Assembly: GCA_001783695.1 (NCBI GenBank)
Contig: MFNE01000011.1
Coordinates: 1-40,962, forward strand
DNA length: 40,962 nucleotides
Direction: 5' to 3'
Source of the DNA: Candidatus Lambdaproteobacteria bacterium RIFOXYD2_FULL_50_16
Lineage (GTDB): Bacteria; SAR324; XYD2-FULL-50-16
Part shown: in pieces, positions 1,994 through 39,472 of the stretch
Numbering within the stretch: position 1 is the first letter of the stretch
Layout: every line of letters begins with the position of its first letter
Notes under the pieces: model-generated
Told to the model about the DNA's origin: nothing
Seen by the model: only the letters and a program-made list of their open reading frames with translations
Databases searched by the model: none
Made by a program: the position numbers and the translations under genes

Positions 1994-2335
1994 TTCGGGG
2001 GGGCAAGTCCCTGTTACTGCCCATCAATTTCTTGGCCGACCAGCAACCAAGGGAAACCTCTGGGGTTTCGACTTAAAGTTTGGGAGGAGGTACCGGCGTC
2101 GATGTTGCGGCCTACTAAAAGCTAGCCGAAGGCCGGATACTGGCCTGTAAATTAGGCCTTGGTCAAGTGAAACTGGGACCTATTGTAAATCGGCCCAAAA
2201 AAAGCAAGTAATATAGACCAACTGCCAACCCCCTTTTTTTTGAGCACACCTATATTTTTTGGCCGTTGGCAAAGACCTTGGCATTGTGGGAATATAAAGA
2301 GACCGCCCGGGTTTTAGGTTGGCCAAGGAGTTGTT
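1994..2335. other. Intergenic region between divergent helicase and ABC exporter genes
   Basis: This 342-base gap must hold the promoters of two divergent units. Two TTGGCA hexamers occur at about 2266 and 2279 upstream of a TATAAA at about 2293, but the spacing (20-21 and 8-9 bases) is not standard. I see no convincing gene or RNA here. Confidence 0.4.
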
Positions 2336-3052
2336 ATGCTGAAAATCAAAAATATTACCAAACGATATGGCCGCCATGAAGTGGTCTCCGAGCTTAACCT
2401 AACCATCCCAATCGGCTCGATTTTTGGACTCTTAGGGCCCAACGGGGCGGGTAAAACCACCTTAATTCGGATAATAACTGGGCTTTTAGAGCCAGATTCA
2501 GGTTCAATCTCTCTTTTAGGGGGCAAGCCTCGCGACCTTAAGGTTCGCCAACAATTGGGTTACCTGCCTCAAGAGGCGGCCTTGTATCCAGGACTGACGG
2601 TTAAAGAAAATCTCCAATTTTTTGGTCGCTGCTACGGGATCAATGGAGCAGCGCTAGAGACTCGTCTAGCCGAGCTTTTAACCCTCACCGAACTTACAGA
2701 GCAGAAAAATCAATTGGTCGAAGAGCTCTCTGGGGGCACGGCCCGAAGGGTCCTCCTGGCGAGCGCCTTGGTGCACCGCCCCCGCTTTTTGATCCTGGAC
2801 GAGCCCACCTCCGGGGTGGACCCGCTATTGCGGCGTAAATTCTGGAAGTGGCTGAGGGCTTTGTCCTTAGAGGGGGCAAGCGTTCTGGTCACTACCCATC
2901 ACTTAGCCGAAGCCGAGGCCTGCGAGCAGATCTTGTTTCTGCGGCATGGCAAGGCGCTTGATGTAGGGGAGCCCAAGGCCTTGATGAAGCGGTACCACGC
3001 GCCCGATTTAGAGGCTGCTTTTTTAGCAGCCACCTTGGAAGGATCACCATGA
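2336..3052 (+). CDS. ABC exporter ATP-binding protein
   Basis: This 238-residue nucleotide-binding subunit powers the membrane partner encoded directly downstream. Visible motifs are Walker A GPNGAGKTT (about residues 34-42), the Q-loop LPQEAALYPGLT, the signature LSGGTARRV, Walker B FLILDEPTSGVDP and the H-loop VTTHH. The layout and length fit ABC-2 exporters of the DrrA/NatA/YbhF type. The ATG at 2336 has an AGGAG site seven bases upstream. Its stop overlaps the permease start by four bases (ATGA), so the two genes are translationally coupled. The signature carries Thr-Ala where most members have Gln/Met, a mild variation. The substrate cannot be told from sequence. Confidence 0.95.
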   Translation: MLKIKNITKRYGRHEVVSELNLTIPIGSIFGLLGPNGAGKTTLIRIITGLLEPDSGSISLLGGKPRDLKVRQQLGYLPQEAALYPGLTVKENLQFFGRCYGINGAALETRLAELLTLTELTEQKNQLVEELSGGTARRVLLASALVHRPRFLILDEPTSGVDPLLRRKFWKWLRALSLEGASVLVTTHHLAEAEACEQILFLRHGKALDVGEPKALMKRYHAPDLEAAFLAATLEGSP

Positions 3053-4218
3053 AACTGCAATGGATCGCTTGGCGTTTGATCCTAGAAATCAGACGGGACC
3101 GACGCACACTGGCCATGTTTTTTTTGGTGCCCCTGGTGGTGATGACCTTGATTTATTATGCGTTGCAAGGTGATGAAAAGGCCAGTCTCGGCCTAGTGAC
3201 CCGAGGGGTAGCACGGCTTTGGGATTACCCTATAAGCGCCGTGTTGGCCGAGTCCGAAGACCTGGAGTTGGTCGAGCTTTCTTTGCCCGATGAAGAGGCA
3301 GACCCGGTCAAAATCGAAGCCTTTATCAAAGATGCCTTAGCCAAGGGAGAGGTACAGGGGGTTTTGCTGATGGATGCCCGCTTGCTAGAGGAACGCTTCG
3401 GCGGGGAGCGAGGCGATTTGCATCTTTATTTAGAAGGCAGCCGCCCCACCGCCACGGCGGCGATTTTGTCAGGGGTCGCTTCCGCGATGGACGATCTGGC
3501 CGAGCAACTGCCAATCGTGGTGGATAATACCTGTTCGGCACAATGCGCCGAATCTATTAACAATAAAGCCCTAAACCTCAATAAACACTACCTCTACGGC
3601 GACGAAGACTACCGCTCAATTGACTATTTCCTACCCGCGTTCCCGCCGCTATTAGTCTTTTTTTTCACTTTTATTATTACCATTATTACCTTTCAACGCG
3701 AACGGGCGCGGGGCACACTGGCCCGGTTGATTATCGCTCCTTTTTCCTTTTTTCAGGTAATTTTGGGCTATGGATTGGGCTTTTTTGCTTTTTTTACTCT
3801 CCAATCGGCAATTGTTTTGGGTTATGTTTTGCTGCTGCTTCGTATCCCCTTGACCGGCTGGCAGATAACCCAATTGGGGTTTTTAACCCTACTTTTGATG
3901 CTGGTAGCCATGGTAATGGGGCTTTTTTGTTCTTTTTTAGCAAAAAACGAATTTCAAGCGATTCAATTTATTCCCCTGGTAATTTTACCCCAAATCTTTT
4001 TGTCGGATATGATTTGGCGGGTCGAAACCTTCCCCGTCTTTTTTAGACTTTTAGCCTTCTCCTTTCCCCTTACTTACGCCAATCGCGCCGCCCGCGGTTT
4101 GGTGCTCAAGGGGGAAGCCTTGTGGATCAATTGGCCCGACCTCTTGGCTTTGGTCGGGTTCTTGGGGTTGTTTTTATTAGGGATGCTGCTTTTTGTCCGC
4201 AGCCGCCAAGCGGTATAA
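3049..4218 (+). CDS. ABC-2 type exporter permease
   Basis: This 389-residue inner-membrane protein is the partner of the preceding ATPase. The first membrane segment lies at about residues 22-42 (TLAMFFLVPLVVMTLIYYAL). A periplasmic domain of roughly 140 residues follows and contains two Cys (NTCSAQCAES). Five or six membrane helices fill residues 185-385, beginning with the conserved FLPAFPPLLVFFFTFIITII and QRERARGTLARLIIAP. This matches the ABC2_membrane_3/YhgE-like fold of multidrug or polymer exporters. It has a four-base overlap with the ATPase gene. There is no adjacent membrane-fusion gene, so it probably works as an ABC-2 pump with a duplicated or homodimeric permease. Confidence 0.93.
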   Translation: MKLQWIAWRLILEIRRDRRTLAMFFLVPLVVMTLIYYALQGDEKASLGLVTRGVARLWDYPISAVLAESEDLELVELSLPDEEADPVKIEAFIKDALAKGEVQGVLLMDARLLEERFGGERGDLHLYLEGSRPTATAAILSGVASAMDDLAEQLPIVVDNTCSAQCAESINNKALNLNKHYLYGDEDYRSIDYFLPAFPPLLVFFFTFIITIITFQRERARGTLARLIIAPFSFFQVILGYGLGFFAFFTLQSAIVLGYVLLLLRIPLTGWQITQLGFLTLLLMLVAMVMGLFCSFLAKNEFQAIQFIPLVILPQIFLSDMIWRVETFPVFFRLLAFSFPLTYANRAARGLVLKGEALWINWPDLLALVGFLGLFLLGMLLFVRSRQAV

Positions 4219-29046: not shown

Positions 29047-29343
29047 AGGTTTTTCCTCCAGCTTAAGCCTAAGATCGACTTTTTTAAGCCCAATGCCAAT
29101 CAAAAAAAGGAGGGGGTTCCAGGAGGGCTAGGACTTTTTGATTTGCCCCTAATTGCAACGCCCAAGATTTCAATTAAGATTAACCAAATCAGAATAATAA
29201 CCCTACAACCTGATCATTGGGTATCCTAGAGAACCAAGCGGTTTTTAGGTCATTTTTTTTAAACCCAAAACCCACATTTTTGGTTGCCAAGAAACTAGAT
29301 AGAGACGATTATTAGCCATCAAAACCCTTATGGAGGAATGCCA

Positions 29344-31251
29344 ATGGTCAAACCCGCCCCCAAACCCACCAAACCTCAACCCCGAAGCTTGGGACCGGTG
29401 GCTAGTCTGGAAAACTACGTCCAACCGGACTGGTGGAACCGGATATTTAACGCTATGTATCTAAAAACCGACGGGGACGTGGTTGAAGATGCAGATATCA
29501 CCCGCACTGAGGTGGACCTCTTCAGCGAGGTTTTAGGCGTCGAAAAAGGGGATCGGATATTGGACCTATGTTGCGGTCAGGGGCGTCACAGCCTCGAATG
29601 GGCTGGGCGGGGTTTCGATGTTACCGGGCTTGACCGGAGCCGGTTTTTGATCCAAAAGGCTCGGCAAAGGGCCCGAAATCTTGGGGTCAATGGGATATTT
29701 AAAGAAGGCGACGTCCGCAAGTTACCCTTCGGCCCAGACCACTTCGACCATTGCTGTATTCTGGGTAATAGCTTCGGCTATTTCGAAAGTCTCGATGAAG
29801 ACTTGGTGGTGCTTAAAGAAGCAAGGCGGGTACTCAAACCCGGTGGACGTATCCTTTTAGACGTGACCGATGGGGAACATCTGCGCAAGGAATACCAGCC
29901 CCGCTCTTGGGAATGGATCAACCAGCAACTGTTTGTCTGCCGCGAGCGCGCCCTTTCTAAAGACGAGCAGAAACTTATCTCCAGAGAAGTGATCACCGAC
30001 ATTAAAAAAGGGGTGGTCGCGGACCAATTCTACTCTGAGCGGCTTTATACGGCTCAAGAACTAATGACCTTGCTCGAAAACGCCGGGTTTAGTGAGATCA
30101 AAACCATTGGCCAACTAAGCCCAGATTCGTTACGTAATCAAGACTTGGGGATGATGAGCCGCCGCCATGTCATCACTGCCGTCTTAAAAAAATCGCCTTC
30201 GCGTGCTAAAACTAAGCCCGTTGCGGAAAAAACCAAGGTCACCGTGCTGCTCGGAGACCCACGCAAGACCGACATCATTAAGCCCAACGGCCTATTTGAT
30301 GAAGACGATCATTACACCTTAAATCAGCTAAAAACCGCCTTGCAGTCTTTGGAAGGGTTCAAGTTTGAATACCTGGATGATCACCAAAGCCTGCTAACAG
30401 ATTTAGCCAAGCGCAAGCAAAAGACCGATTTGATCTTTAACCTCTGCGACGAGGGTTACAACAACCAAGCACGCGCCGAGCTCCATATCCCGGCGATTTT
30501 GGAGATGTTCGAGCTGCCTTATACGGGTGCGGCTCCGCAGGCGTTGGCCTTTTGTTATGACAAGTCCTTGGTAAGGGGGATGGCCCGCGAATTGGGCATT
30601 GCGGTGCCCCAAGCCTTTTTGGTGCGCGCCGAAGACAACGTCTTTGGACTGCCAATTAGTTTTCCCGTGTTGATTAAGCCCAATCTAGGGGATAGCAGTT
30701 TTGGTATTACCCAAGACAACCTAGTTTACAACATGGAAGACCTGATGGAAGGGATCAGTCGGGTCCGTGGCCGGATGGGCTTCGACCAGCCCTTTTTGAT
30801 TGAGGAATTTTTGCCCGGTAAAGACATTAGCTTTGGGGTCATTGGTAACCCAGAAACTGAATATTTGCTCCTTCCCTTGATTGAAGAAGACTACTCGCAA
30901 CTCCCAGAAGGGTTACCTCGAATCTGTGGGTACGAGGCCAAATGGCTTCCTGATTCGCCTTATTCCAAGGTCGGCAGCATCCCCGTGCAACTCCCACCTA
31001 TGACTGAAAAGGAAATCATTGATTCCTCTTTAACCCTGTTTAGTCGGCTAGGTTGCCGCGACTACAGCCGCTTTGACTGGCGGCTCGACGCCAAAGGCAA
31101 ACCCAAGCTTTTAGAGGTTAACCCCAACCCTGGTTGGTGCTGGGATGGCCACTTGGCCAAGATGGCCCACTTGGCTAACTACAACTATCCCCAGATGTTG
31201 GAGTTGATCATTAAAGCTGGTCAAGCCCGTCTGCGACGTCAGGAACATTAA
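29344..31251 (+). CDS. Fusion of SAM methyltransferase and Ddl-like ATP-grasp ligase
   Basis: The start is best placed at ATG 29344, because GGAGG (29332-29336) is seven bases upstream; ATG 29338 would be too close. The product is 635 residues. A Pro/Lys-rich lead (1-20) is followed by a class I methyltransferase (about 35-285) with the SAM loop ILDLCCGQGRHSLEWA and acidic GLDRS. A basic linker (about 283-300) joins an ATP-grasp domain (300-635). That shows DLIFNLCDEG, LPYTGAAPQALAFCYDKSLV, PVLIKPNLGDSSFGI, FLIEEFLPGKDISFGV, and the metal-binding FDWRLDAKGK / LLEVNPNPGW. The ligase half resembles D-Ala-D-Ala ligases. It probably joins an amino acid or peptide and methylates the same or a related product; the substrate is unknown. 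A strong terminator follows. Confidence 0.9.
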   Translation: MVKPAPKPTKPQPRSLGPVASLENYVQPDWWNRIFNAMYLKTDGDVVEDADITRTEVDLFSEVLGVEKGDRILDLCCGQGRHSLEWAGRGFDVTGLDRSRFLIQKARQRARNLGVNGIFKEGDVRKLPFGPDHFDHCCILGNSFGYFESLDEDLVVLKEARRVLKPGGRILLDVTDGEHLRKEYQPRSWEWINQQLFVCRERALSKDEQKLISREVITDIKKGVVADQFYSERLYTAQELMTLLENAGFSEIKTIGQLSPDSLRNQDLGMMSRRHVITAVLKKSPSRAKTKPVAEKTKVTVLLGDPRKTDIIKPNGLFDEDDHYTLNQLKTALQSLEGFKFEYLDDHQSLLTDLAKRKQKTDLIFNLCDEGYNNQARAELHIPAILEMFELPYTGAAPQALAFCYDKSLVRGMARELGIAVPQAFLVRAEDNVFGLPISFPVLIKPNLGDSSFGITQDNLVYNMEDLMEGISRVRGRMGFDQPFLIEEFLPGKDISFGVIGNPETEYLLLPLIEEDYSQLPEGLPRICGYEAKWLPDSPYSKVGSIPVQLPPMTEKEIIDSSLTLFSRLGCRDYSRFDWRLDAKGKPKLLEVNPNPGWCWDGHLAKMAHLANYNYPQMLELIIKAGQARLRRQEH

Positions 31252-35420: not shown

Positions 35421-36143
35421 ATGGACCAACCCTTCGACCTCCAGCAAAAAAATACCTTCTATCATGGCACTAGATCGGAACTGAAACCTGGGGACCGTAT
35501 TGAACCTTATTGCCCGCTCCCAGGGGATGAAAAAAAAGGATTAAAAACCGGGGTCACCTTGACCCCTAATCTGGATGAGGCTATTTGGGATGCGGAGATT
35601 GCAATCGGCGAGCATCCTAGTCGCGTCTATTTAGTAGATCCGATGGGCGAGGTCGGAAAAGTCGCGGATTTAAGGGGTGGCGGGTCGCCAATTAACCTGT
35701 CCATGTCCTATTATTCATACGAACCGCTACGAGTCGTAGCGGAGGTGACAAACTGGCCCTTTTACCATGGAACTAAGGCGGACCTGAAGCTTGGTGACCT
35801 GATCAAGCCCGGACAAATTCCAAACTTTGGCAATAAGGACCGAACCTCAACGTATGTTTATCTGACCTGTAGGCTGGATGCGGCCATCTGGGGAGCGGAG
35901 CTAGCCACGGGAGCGGCCCCTTGCAGAATTTACGCGGTCCGACCCACGGGTTCGCTGGAAAACGACCCTAATCTGACCAATACTAAGTTTCACGGCAATC
36001 CGACCCAATCTTTCCGCTCTCGTGAACCCTTGGAAATTCTAGGAGAGGTCACCGATTGGCGGGGACACTCCCCCGAAGCCATCAAAGCCATGAAAGAGGG
36101 GCTTAGCCGACTGGAACAACTGGGAATTGATCCAATAGATTAA
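35421..36143 (+). CDS. Tandem Arr-like ADP-ribosyltransferase (two domains)
   Basis: This 240-residue protein contains two copies of the rifampin ADP-ribosyltransferase (Arr) fold. The second (about 112-235) is close to known Arr proteins: FYHGTKADLKLGDLIKPG, YVYLTCRLDAAIWGAELATG, RIYAVRPTGSLENDPNLTNT, GNPTQSFRSREPLEILGEVT. The catalytic His, Tyr and Asp correspond to FYHGT, YVYLT and LDAAI. The first (about 11-110) keeps FYHGTRSELKPGD, but the Tyr strand is GVTLT, so the Tyr is lost; DEAIWDAEIA and SYEPLRVVAEVTNW remain. Half one is probably catalytically dead and may be regulatory. Known Arr enzymes are single-domain and inactivate rifamycins with NAD+. Whether this one does so or has a cellular target is unknown. 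Confidence 0.8.
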   Translation: MDQPFDLQQKNTFYHGTRSELKPGDRIEPYCPLPGDEKKGLKTGVTLTPNLDEAIWDAEIAIGEHPSRVYLVDPMGEVGKVADLRGGGSPINLSMSYYSYEPLRVVAEVTNWPFYHGTKADLKLGDLIKPGQIPNFGNKDRTSTYVYLTCRLDAAIWGAELATGAAPCRIYAVRPTGSLENDPNLTNTKFHGNPTQSFRSREPLEILGEVTDWRGHSPEAIKAMKEGLSRLEQLGIDPID

Positions 36144-36224: not shown

Positions 36225-36254
36225 AAAAAAAAGGGGGCCGAAGCCCCCCCTTTA
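36225..36254. terminator. Bidirectional rho-independent terminator
   Basis: GGGGGC-CGAA-GCCCCC is flanked by eight A on the left and TTT on the right. On the minus strand it reads GGGGGGGCTTCGGCCCCC followed by eight T, a classical terminator just after the stop of the FAD fusion gene. It also ends the Arr-like transcript. Confidence 0.9.
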
Positions 36255-36256
36255 GG

Positions 36257-39200
36257 TTAAGGCCCGTGGATCAGGTCTTCTTTGGTGGCGTTGTAGATGG
36301 GGATAGGCCAGTTGGTGAAGAAGCGGGCGCAGTTGAGGCCGGAAATCACCCCGCCCTCGACACAGCCGGCGTTAATCAGGTTTTGGGTCCAGTCCCCGGC
36401 GATAAAGAAGTTGGCGATCCCAAAATCGTTGGGGCCTCTTCTTAGATGGGGGGTGCCGGGCGCGGTGAGTACATAATGCTCGGTGTAGTTGATCCCCACC
36501 CGCCAATACTCAAAGGCCAATGAGTTTTGATCAAAGGTGCCGTCTGGATTGGCCGCCTTGGGCCAGAGGTGAGCCGCCCATTTGTTGAGCCACTCTTGGT
36601 TATTGGCCATAAACTTATCAAAGGCGATCTTCGGGAAGCTATGGTCGGTCGGCGGCGGCAACTGCCCACTGGGAGCGATGATCCGGGTGTCGATGGTCGA
36701 GCAGGGATAGGCCAAATACTTCGGCTTATCAGGCCCGGACCATTCCTCTTGGGGCAAGAGGTGGCTCAAGTCCGCAGTGCTAGAGTAAGGCTCCTGATAC
36801 CCGCCAACAATCGGTTCCATGTTTTCATACAGCTTGGAGCCTGGATTAAAGCCCAACTCTTTTAAGGACTTCTTAAACCACAACTCTGAACAACGGGTTA
36901 GCGTGGTTTTTAAGCTGTCGAGCATGGGGGTCCAATCGGGAATTCGGGCAGCCAGTTGACCTGATATGGGCCGTAGTGCCGCCGGAGTAATGCCGCAGAT
37001 CACCCGGTCGAAATCCACCCCTAGTTTAAGCTGGTAGCGTTCCTTTTGGTCATCCCAGTCGAGCCAGTTGGACTCCAGGTTTTGGTGCTGGTCGGTCCAG
37101 GCCTTTTGCAGCCTTGCTGCTTGGGTCGGGTCAATCTGGTCCCAGTTGATATCACTAGGCCAGCAGGGCCAGTCGATCGTCAGGTTTTTACCGGGCACGT
37201 GGTAAGGCAGGGTGACAAAGGGGTTATATTCGGTGACACCTGCTTTAAGCTTAATCAGATTAGCCATTTTGAGCCCCTCAATGGCCGTGCCGTCCGCGCT
37301 TAGTTCGATCTCCTCAATCTCTTGGAAGAGTTTGAATTTAACCCCCTTGGCGCTTAAAACCTCATAAAAGGGCGTGAAGATCACGTCGCCCATACCCATA
37401 TTCATCCGCCAGAAGATGTTGCCTTTGTAGGTGAGCAACATCCGCAGACTGCCAAAGAGCCCCACCCCGGCGGCGAAAACCGGGCGGTCTGGGTCTCCGT
37501 CTTGATAGCCAAAAACAATGTCGTAGATCGTCTGCAACATCGGGCCTTTGATGGTAAACACATCGGCCCCATGTTTACGCAACCAATCCTTAAAGTTCAT
37601 GTCGTTGATCACCCTAAACCCGCGGGTGAAAATCTTATCCACACACATCCCGGTGAGGATCGCGAGGCCAAAGTCCATCATCAGCCAGAAATGGCGCAGC
37701 AGATCCCACTTGAGTAGCAAGGGCTTAATCAAGACCCCGACTGCGTTTTGAATCCGGTCAATCACCTTTAATATTTCGCCTAAGATCTCCTCGATTAGGG
37801 TTTCGATATCGGTGACCTCGCCGCCTGTATTTTGATCAATAATCTTTGAAGCCTTTTGCAGACCTGCAAGAAGATCACTAAGCCCTTGGTCTAGCTCCTG
37901 GACCAGTTTGGCCCCCACCATTCCTTGGGTGAAGTCTTGCAATCGGCCCAAGAAGCCTTGGTCCTCCGAATCCGCCTCGCCAGTTAGGCTCTCCTGTACG
38001 TTTTGCAAGACCTCCAAGAGGGCCTCGACCATCATCTCGGCGTAGTCGATCGGTCCCGCCAACAGATCAGGGGTGCCCGGCTCTTCGGCGTTTTTGGGGA
38101 AATTGACGGGGAAGGGCTTCCAGTCGTAGCCGTTGGCCCCTTTGGGGGCGTCGATGTCGAGGTAATCCTTTAAGTTTTCTTGAAAAACCACTAGGTCAGT
38201 TGGGGTGTAGAAGTCTTTATAGGTCAGACCTAAATTGCCATAACCCAAGCGTTCCAAAGTGGCCCGGTAGGCCCCGTTTATCAGGTGGAAGGCGTTGTTA
38301 TAAAAGCCCAGCCAAATATGTAGGCCGTGTTCCTCAATCGCCTGCTTTTCTTGGGCATTGCGCCCTGAGGCGCCTTTGCCGCCCAAGCGCCAACTGCGCT
38401 CATAGACGGTGAATTCATATTGGTTGTCCCATTCGGGCGCGGTGACGATGGCCGCTAACGTGGTCAAGCTGCCCAAACCGCCGCCTAAGACGGCGACTTT
38501 TTGGGGTTTTTGCTTCCCTCTGCGTTTGATAACTTCTCCCATTTCCATGACAAAATCCATTTTAACCTGAATCCCCGGCCCGATCGGTTGGACCCCTTTT
38601 TCGATGCCAAAAGACTCGGCAAAAGGGTAGCTGGCCAACTCGGGGTTGTGCAGGTTGAAGATTTTAGTGATCGGGCTGATGTCGGTCAGCGGGTTTAACT
38701 TGGTGATTTTCGCCGGAGCTTCGGCAATAGCTTGATAACAGGCCCCTTTGGGCTCTTTGACACTTCTAAACTCTTTTAAAAAAACCATCGGCACTTCGCC
38801 CTTAATCAGGTCCGAAAGTAGGGCTTTAATCAGGGCAATGGGATCGTTGATCCCTTGGTTTACAATCTCCTCAAAGGTCTGCTCCGCGCCCATTAGATCG
38901 TCAAAAAGGGCCTCGGCCCAACTCACTGGGTTTTGGGTCGATTTGAGCGAAAAAATCTCTTGCTCCGCCGCTTCCTGGTCGATACCAAATTCCTTAAACG
39001 CCCAAGCGGTAAGGCTAAAATCGGTAGGGTCTTCAGGGGCCGTATTGGGGGTAAAGAGGGCGGAATTTTTCAAAAAACCGAAGGATTCCCGCCCACAGGC
39101 CATGGCGATCGGGCTGTTTACAAAGACGTAGGGCATAAACCAAACCAACCGTTTGGGCTGGCCCCCCTCGTAGCGAATCAAAGGCAACCAAAAAGCCCAA

Positions 39201-39472
39201 TCGTTTTCGGGCATAAAGCCCGTTTTTCTAGCTTCGGAGTCTAGGCTGGTCGCGTGCTTGGAAAAGGAGAGACCCAGAAGTACAAAGGGGCCTAGAGATT
39301 TGTAGGATATATCCGAACCGGCCAGAATGGGGGCAAAAAATTTATCAACAAAGGACTGGATGGTTTTTTGCTCCCCTTTAATGGGCAGTCCAAAAAGCTC
39401 GGTCCCGTTTAGCTCATATGGGGGCTCAAAAACGAAGTTGCCTGGATAATTGATATAATTCGGCTCGGTCAT
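36257..39472 (-). CDS. Fusion of acetoacetate-decarboxylase-like domain and FAD amine-oxidase domain
   Basis: This is a 1071-residue protein. The N-terminal part (about 1-290) resembles the acetoacetate decarboxylase fold (FVLLGLSFSKHA, WAFWLPLIRY, RLVWFMPYVFVNSPIAMACG, RESFGFLKNSALF). From about 318 an FAD/NAD(P)-binding amine-oxidase or carotenoid-desaturase-like domain begins, with the Rossmann loop VAVLGGGLGSLTTLAAI and VYERSWRLGGKGASG. The C-terminal FAD segment FFIAGDWTQNLINAGCVEGG lies at about 1026-1045. A long insert (about 455-610) is rich in acidic and hydrophobic helices. Related flavoproteins act on carotenoids, hydroxysqualene or other lipids; the fusion suggests two consecutive steps on one substrate. 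The gene stands alone, with a terminator downstream and palindromes upstream. Confidence 0.8.
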   Translation of the reverse strand: MTEPNYINYPGNFVFEPPYELNGTELFGLPIKGEQKTIQSFVDKFFAPILAGSDISYKSLGPFVLLGLSFSKHATSLDSEARKTGFMPENDWAFWLPLIRYEGGQPKRLVWFMPYVFVNSPIAMACGRESFGFLKNSALFTPNTAPEDPTDFSLTAWAFKEFGIDQEAAEQEIFSLKSTQNPVSWAEALFDDLMGAEQTFEEIVNQGINDPIALIKALLSDLIKGEVPMVFLKEFRSVKEPKGACYQAIAEAPAKITKLNPLTDISPITKIFNLHNPELASYPFAESFGIEKGVQPIGPGIQVKMDFVMEMGEVIKRRGKQKPQKVAVLGGGLGSLTTLAAIVTAPEWDNQYEFTVYERSWRLGGKGASGRNAQEKQAIEEHGLHIWLGFYNNAFHLINGAYRATLERLGYGNLGLTYKDFYTPTDLVVFQENLKDYLDIDAPKGANGYDWKPFPVNFPKNAEEPGTPDLLAGPIDYAEMMVEALLEVLQNVQESLTGEADSEDQGFLGRLQDFTQGMVGAKLVQELDQGLSDLLAGLQKASKIIDQNTGGEVTDIETLIEEILGEILKVIDRIQNAVGVLIKPLLLKWDLLRHFWLMMDFGLAILTGMCVDKIFTRGFRVINDMNFKDWLRKHGADVFTIKGPMLQTIYDIVFGYQDGDPDRPVFAAGVGLFGSLRMLLTYKGNIFWRMNMGMGDVIFTPFYEVLSAKGVKFKLFQEIEEIELSADGTAIEGLKMANLIKLKAGVTEYNPFVTLPYHVPGKNLTIDWPCWPSDINWDQIDPTQAARLQKAWTDQHQNLESNWLDWDDQKERYQLKLGVDFDRVICGITPAALRPISGQLAARIPDWTPMLDSLKTTLTRCSELWFKKSLKELGFNPGSKLYENMEPIVGGYQEPYSSTADLSHLLPQEEWSGPDKPKYLAYPCSTIDTRIIAPSGQLPPPTDHSFPKIAFDKFMANNQEWLNKWAAHLWPKAANPDGTFDQNSLAFEYWRVGINYTEHYVLTAPGTPHLRRGPNDFGIANFFIAGDWTQNLINAGCVEGGVISGLNCARFFTNWPIPIYNATKEDLIHGP

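Follow-up and report, generated by a model that had tools for sequence, protein, structure and literature searches.

The gene at positions 35421 to 36143 of the window (the whole stretch of 40,962 nucleotides analysed here, from Candidatus Lambdaproteobacteria bacterium RIFOXYD2_FULL_50_16) encodes a protein with two Arr domains in tandem. Judged from its sequence, the protein is probably a rifamycin-inactivating mono-ADP-ribosyltransferase in which the second domain would carry out the reaction and the first would be a structural or accessory pseudo-domain, and it seems to be a modified form of a known resistance enzyme and not a new kind of protein. The features of the locus are given below, with residues aligned to Arr-ms, the Arr protein of Mycolicibacterium smegmatis.

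35421–36143, plus strand: tandem arr gene, 240 aa, with full-length relatives known
35457–35756, plus strand: domain 1 (pseudo-Arr), PF12120 core lacking helix α2 (Pfam match, first-domain clade)
35463–35465, plus strand: His15, equivalent to Arr-ms His19, kept in domain 1 (alignment)
35556–35558, plus strand: Thr46, at the Arr-ms Tyr49 position of domain 1; among eight first domains Tyr is lost only here (alignment)
35661–35663, plus strand: Val81, at the catalytic Asp84 position of domain 1; Asp is lost in 8/8 first domains (alignment)
35703–35705, plus strand: Met95 of the first-domain-specific [LP][SA]MS motif; the residue is Met in every first domain (8/8) and in 0/38 other Arr domains
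35760–36059, plus strand: domain 2 (apparently active Arr), PF12120 (Pfam match and NF033144)
35766–35768, plus strand: His116, equivalent to Arr-ms His19, domain 2 (alignment to Arr-ms)
35859–35861, plus strand: Tyr147, equivalent to Arr-ms Tyr49, domain 2 (alignment to Arr-ms)
35964–35966, plus strand: Asp182, equivalent to Arr-ms Asp84, within NDPNLT, domain 2 (alignment to Arr-ms)
36072–36119, plus strand: helix α2 of domain 2, with the rifampin-pocket Met/Leu residues 126, 130 and 133 kept (alignment to 2hw2)
36228–36253, no strand assigned: hairpin resembling a terminator, lying between arr and the convergent downstream gene on the minus strand (pattern match only)

The open reading frame is uninterrupted over its full length, and its GC content (52%) is in line with that of the surrounding DNA. 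Two separate matches to PF12120 can be recognized, one in residues 13 to 112 (79.9 bits, E 1.7e-22 scored alone) and one in residues 114 to 213 (135.3 bits, E 9.2e-40 scored alone); each is far above the 25-bit cut-off, which bears out the preliminary description of two Arr domains in one protein, and the entire protein scores 216.7 bits, placing it within the Arr family. A chance ORF or assembly artefact is ruled out by these matches and because a tandem orthologue, 63% identical, is present in a different genus of the same family as the window's host (G002). A search of the host genome found no other relatives of the tandem protein. AlphaFold2 models, with a mean pLDDT of 34 for the window protein alone and 43 when two Arrs from viral contigs were included, were too poor for fold searches or for assessing domain packing; helix α2 of domain 2 is also visible in the low-confidence model (pLDDT 43).

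Domain 2 closely resembles characterised Arr enzymes. It is 51% identical over 123 residues to Arr-ms (2hw2, 9iaf), with the same catalytic residues and rifampin helix, and about 50% identical to Arr-2 of the integron arr cassettes (9iba), which belongs to the same family; the corresponding PDB matches have E values of 3.7e-39 (2hw2/9iaf) and 4.9e-34 (9iba). The preliminary claim that this domain retains the His, Tyr and Asp equivalents holds, as His116, Tyr147 and Asp182 align with the catalytic residues of both Arr-ms and Arr-2, and all three are retained in the second domains of all eight distinct tandem proteins found. In M. smegmatis Arr, mutation of any one of the three abolishes resistance (PMC3138739). 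The loop NDPNLT...GNPT seen in Arr-ms (2hw2) and Arr-2 (9iba) is likewise present, and the α2 residues Met126, Leu130 and Leu133, whose roles have been described together with those of other residues in the rifampin pocket and in catalysis (PMC6092378, PMC3138739), are M, L and L in the window's domain. When scored alone, domain 2 reaches 172 bits against the NCBIfam equivalog model NF033144, for which the cut-off is 130 bits. By homology to Arr-ms and Arr-2, NAD+ would be bound through His116 and Tyr147, the rifamycin would be held between the DPNLT...GNPT loop and helix α2, and Asp182 would serve in the transfer of ADP-ribose onto the rifamycin, which would then no longer block RNA polymerase.

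Domain 1 presents a different picture. Its fold is recognisable (PF12120, E 1.7e-22) and its catalytic acidic residue is lost, features that define a pseudo-ART; of the Arr catalytic triad it keeps His15, with Thr46 and Val81 in place of Tyr and Asp. The SN[YF] motif is also missing, and helix α2 is absent because the domain stops at the Trp115 equivalent and is followed directly by domain 2. Across the eight distinct first domains the Asp84 position is occupied by Val (three) or Ala (five), while it is Asp in all eight second domains and all 30 single Arrs compared (loss in 0/38); helix α2 is missing from every first domain, and Met is found at position 98 in all eight and in none of the other Arr domains compared. 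Tyr49 is kept in 7/8 first domains, as is the HGT motif with His19. The preliminary description regarded domain 1 as apparently inactive for want of the Tyr strand residue. Degeneration was correctly recognised, and Thr46 does stand at the Tyr49 position, but the Tyr loss is private to the window genome and not decisive; the mark shared by the eight tandem proteins is the loss of Asp84 and α2. On these residue patterns, domain 1 is best described as an old, conserved pseudo-ART joined to an apparently active Arr, and it would hardly catalyse rifamycin transfer.

The first domains all group together in a single clade (SH-aLRT 99.3, UFBoot 100), so the losses of Asp84 and α2 in the eight proteins are not independent and one ancestral loss suffices to explain them. 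Topology tests, based on 100 alignment columns only, are compatible with a single duplication in which first and second domains form one clade (AU p 0.52); that the domain was duplicated separately in the cyanobacterial and window lineages was disfavoured in the same tests, short of formal exclusion (AU p 0.064). Domain 1 would thus be an ancient duplicate that lost its catalytic Asp, the SN[YF] motif of the NAD loop and helix α2 before the gene spread between phyla. It would most likely have been retained as a folded accessory part that packs on or steadies domain 2, this being the weakest step of the proposed mechanism. That His19 and Tyr49 are each kept in 7/8 first domains is more than pure scaffolding needs and counts against a solely accessory role.

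The eight distinct tandem proteins are spread across three phyla. In the window's phylum an Arr of any kind was found in 2/52 genomes searched, and both are tandem. The cyanobacterial examples (this phylum being assigned from phycobilisome genes in genome G242) include two plasmid-borne proteins, from pNsp_b of Nostoc sp. ATCC 53789 (WP_348537543.1) and from a plasmid of Leptolyngbya boryana (WP_017291824.1), and proteins from the genomes G683, G797 and G798, with the domains in G797 identical to those of L. boryana. The tandem form is rare there, with 1/386 genomes drawn from the phylum and 3/42 within one order; two of the tandem-bearing cyanobacterial genomes additionally carry a normal single-domain Arr. 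In the third phylum it was found in 2/395 genomes (G1027 and G1022). Since the hosts are distant and the gene neighbourhoods differ, the tandem gene has likely spread by horizontal transfer. A phage origin was rejected, as a search for viral relatives of the tandem query found none and the phage records held only two single-domain Arr matches. The sole Arr match of a further contig scan was a frameshifted remnant in a Verrucomicrobia genome.

Other arrangements involving Arr domains were encountered during these searches. Proteins of about 250 aa in which a TPR-like helical domain precedes the Arr domain (L021 to L026, L043 to L047, L051) recur across several families of cyanobacteria; of these, the four that were aligned have the catalytic residues kept and the α2 pocket differs, with Trp or Leu in place of Met126. 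At L012:1300-1905 (G253) an Arr lies C-terminal to a ferredoxin-like 4Fe-4S domain of divergent sequence (Fer4_19, E 2e-22), and at L011:1429-1890 (G112) a single Arr is preceded by a short second copy of its first 15 residues (FYSGTRADLKPGDQ), which may be left over from a tandem duplication or mark the start of one. By eye, a single-domain Arr at L055:1423-1887 (IMGVR_UViG_2775506840_000004) comes right after phage tail-like ORFs and is possible prophage cargo, and an Arr at L056:1441-1884 lies near an opposite-strand TROVE-like ORF (2271-3374).

That domain 1 is instead a near-neutral passenger, a duplicate decaying slowly in frame ahead of a working enzyme, is unlikely. Such decay would fit the lineage-specific damage seen in first domains: L. 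boryana has His19 replaced by Tyr and an 8-residue loop deletion, G1027 has a gap in the same loop, and the window protein has lost Tyr49 to Thr and, as a further change of its own, Arg101 to Tyr. This damage indicates that conservation of domain 1 does not extend to the catalytic site as such. For the four cyanobacterial genes, dN/dS amounts to 0.26 to 0.58 for domain 1 and 0.07 to 0.13 for domain 2, a ratio of about three- to sixfold. Yet the domain 1 values stay under 1, as do their bootstrap upper bounds in every cyanobacterial pair except G798-G683 (above 1), the eight proteins contain no stops or frameshifts, 29 columns of the first domain are invariant across six proteins, and the architecture has survived across three phyla. 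Domain 1 is under relaxed but still purifying selection.

It is conceivable, if unlikely, that the tandem Arrs are a distinct old subfamily whose pseudo-ART domain acts as an RNA polymerase tether, an allosteric NAD+ sensor or a lid, making drug inactivation regulated or targeted. It is quite doubtful that domain 1 serves, without catalysis, as a module that targets or regulates the enzyme, for example by tethering it to RNA polymerase, the site of rifamycin action, or by affecting transcription directly. An Arr fold can be useful without catalysis, as two catalytically inactive variants of Arr-ms, H18A and D83A (as numbered in the paper), continue to co-precipitate the RNA polymerase β subunit and to repress ribosomal genes (PMC3138739); the binding by these mutants makes a non-catalytic role plausible and is not evidence on the tandem protein itself. 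The private conserved motif of the first domains and the purifying selection on them are in keeping with such a module, but the Asp mutant of Arr-ms lost L11 binding (PMC3138739), and the neighbourhood of the tandem gene shows no link to transcription.

In the window the tandem gene stands alone, with an outer-membrane beta-barrel-like ORF upstream on the same strand and a convergent gene for a 1071-aa protein of FAD/amine-oxidase type downstream (36257–39472, minus strand), in which a long N-terminal part precedes the NAD-binding/amine-oxidase region. Elsewhere in the window, a 637-aa ORF (29338–31251, plus strand) appears by eye to combine a methyltransferase-like N-terminal half with a D-Ala-D-Ala-ligase/ATP-grasp-like C-terminal half. 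The neighbours in G002 include CheZ, and no conserved operon partner was found across the loci compared (window, G002, plasmids and G798). In G798, of the Leptolyngbya order, the tandem gene has around it an Mph-like (macrolide phosphotransferase) gene, scoring 369 bits to the MphB model and so short of the strict threshold of 615 set for it, together with a Mef-like gene of the MFS type, a Ble-like gene and two genes for GNATs; these resistance-type neighbours favour a drug-resistance role, as a single case. Cluster I of the host's RpoB has the susceptible-type residues Q513, D516, H526, R529 and S531 (E. coli numbering), at the main rifampicin resistance positions.

It is very unlikely that the full protein works on some natural substrate other than a rifamycin, such as a protein or the guanidino compounds proposed for some Arr proteins on the basis of ykkC-III neighbourhoods (PMC8492726). 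The stress roles of Arr-ms (PMC3138739) lend this some plausibility, but an Rfam scan of the window matched two tRNAs and no riboswitch, so the riboswitch/guanidine link was rejected, and the rifampin-pocket residues are retained in domain 2. The other target suggested in the preliminary description is thus unsupported, given the kept pocket, the NF033144 score (172 against 130 bits) and the Mph-like and Mef-like genes beside the G798 relative. The self-regulation that it offered as an alternative may occur. Highly improbable is a domain 1 that retains NAD+ binding, or relies on a displaced acidic residue (Asp83 in the window), to modify or sense a non-rifamycin: the HGT motif and Tyr persist in 7/8 first domains, and the window and G002 have an Asp two residues past the lost one, but the other first domains have Glu, Lys, Ala or Asn at this position, SN[YF] is gone and the window lacks Tyr as well.

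The reading of the tandem protein as a rifamycin-inactivating enzyme with an accessory pseudo-domain sets it beside several known systems. Functionally verified Arrs are single-domain proteins of about 140 to 150 aa (PMC8492726); Arr-ms itself is one domain of 143 aa, whereas the tandem protein has two domains in 240 aa with the degenerate copy ahead, a difference in a trait that NF033144 does not demand. Arr-2 is a single-domain mobile cassette, in contrast to the two-domain stand-alone gene described here. The Arr-X group, an orthologous group beside Arr-1, is an active, divergent line within this family, but it conserves all three catalytic residues and no tandem is described in it (PMC13246000). 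The Nostoc pNsp_b and L. boryana proteins share the architecture, with a first domain lacking Asp84 and α2 and an intact second domain; they are 55% identical to the window protein and differ in keeping Tyr49 in domain 1, L. boryana having lost His19 instead. A large survey of Arr proteins covered lengths of 36 to 679 aa and was then filtered to close single-domain matches to Arr-ms (PMC8492726), and no published characterisation of a tandem Arr was found in the open-licence literature. The preliminary view that a tandem is not the known resistance form therefore agrees with the single-domain nature of characterised Arrs, but the eight examples qualify it, two of them plasmid-borne and annotated as arr. 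The parts are known and the tandem is already in public records simply as arr, while the architecture is apparently unstudied.

As Arr-ms also has roles unrelated to drugs, including in stress (PMC3138739), the natural function of the tandem protein may be something other than drug inactivation. If domain 1 is inert, the gene is merely a duplicated resistance gene. If the protein is active, a two-domain form would be added to the environmental rifamycin resistome, and the tandem Arr would be a compact natural enzyme joined to an inactive copy of itself, allowing the influence of a pseudo-enzyme domain to be measured by a simple drug assay.
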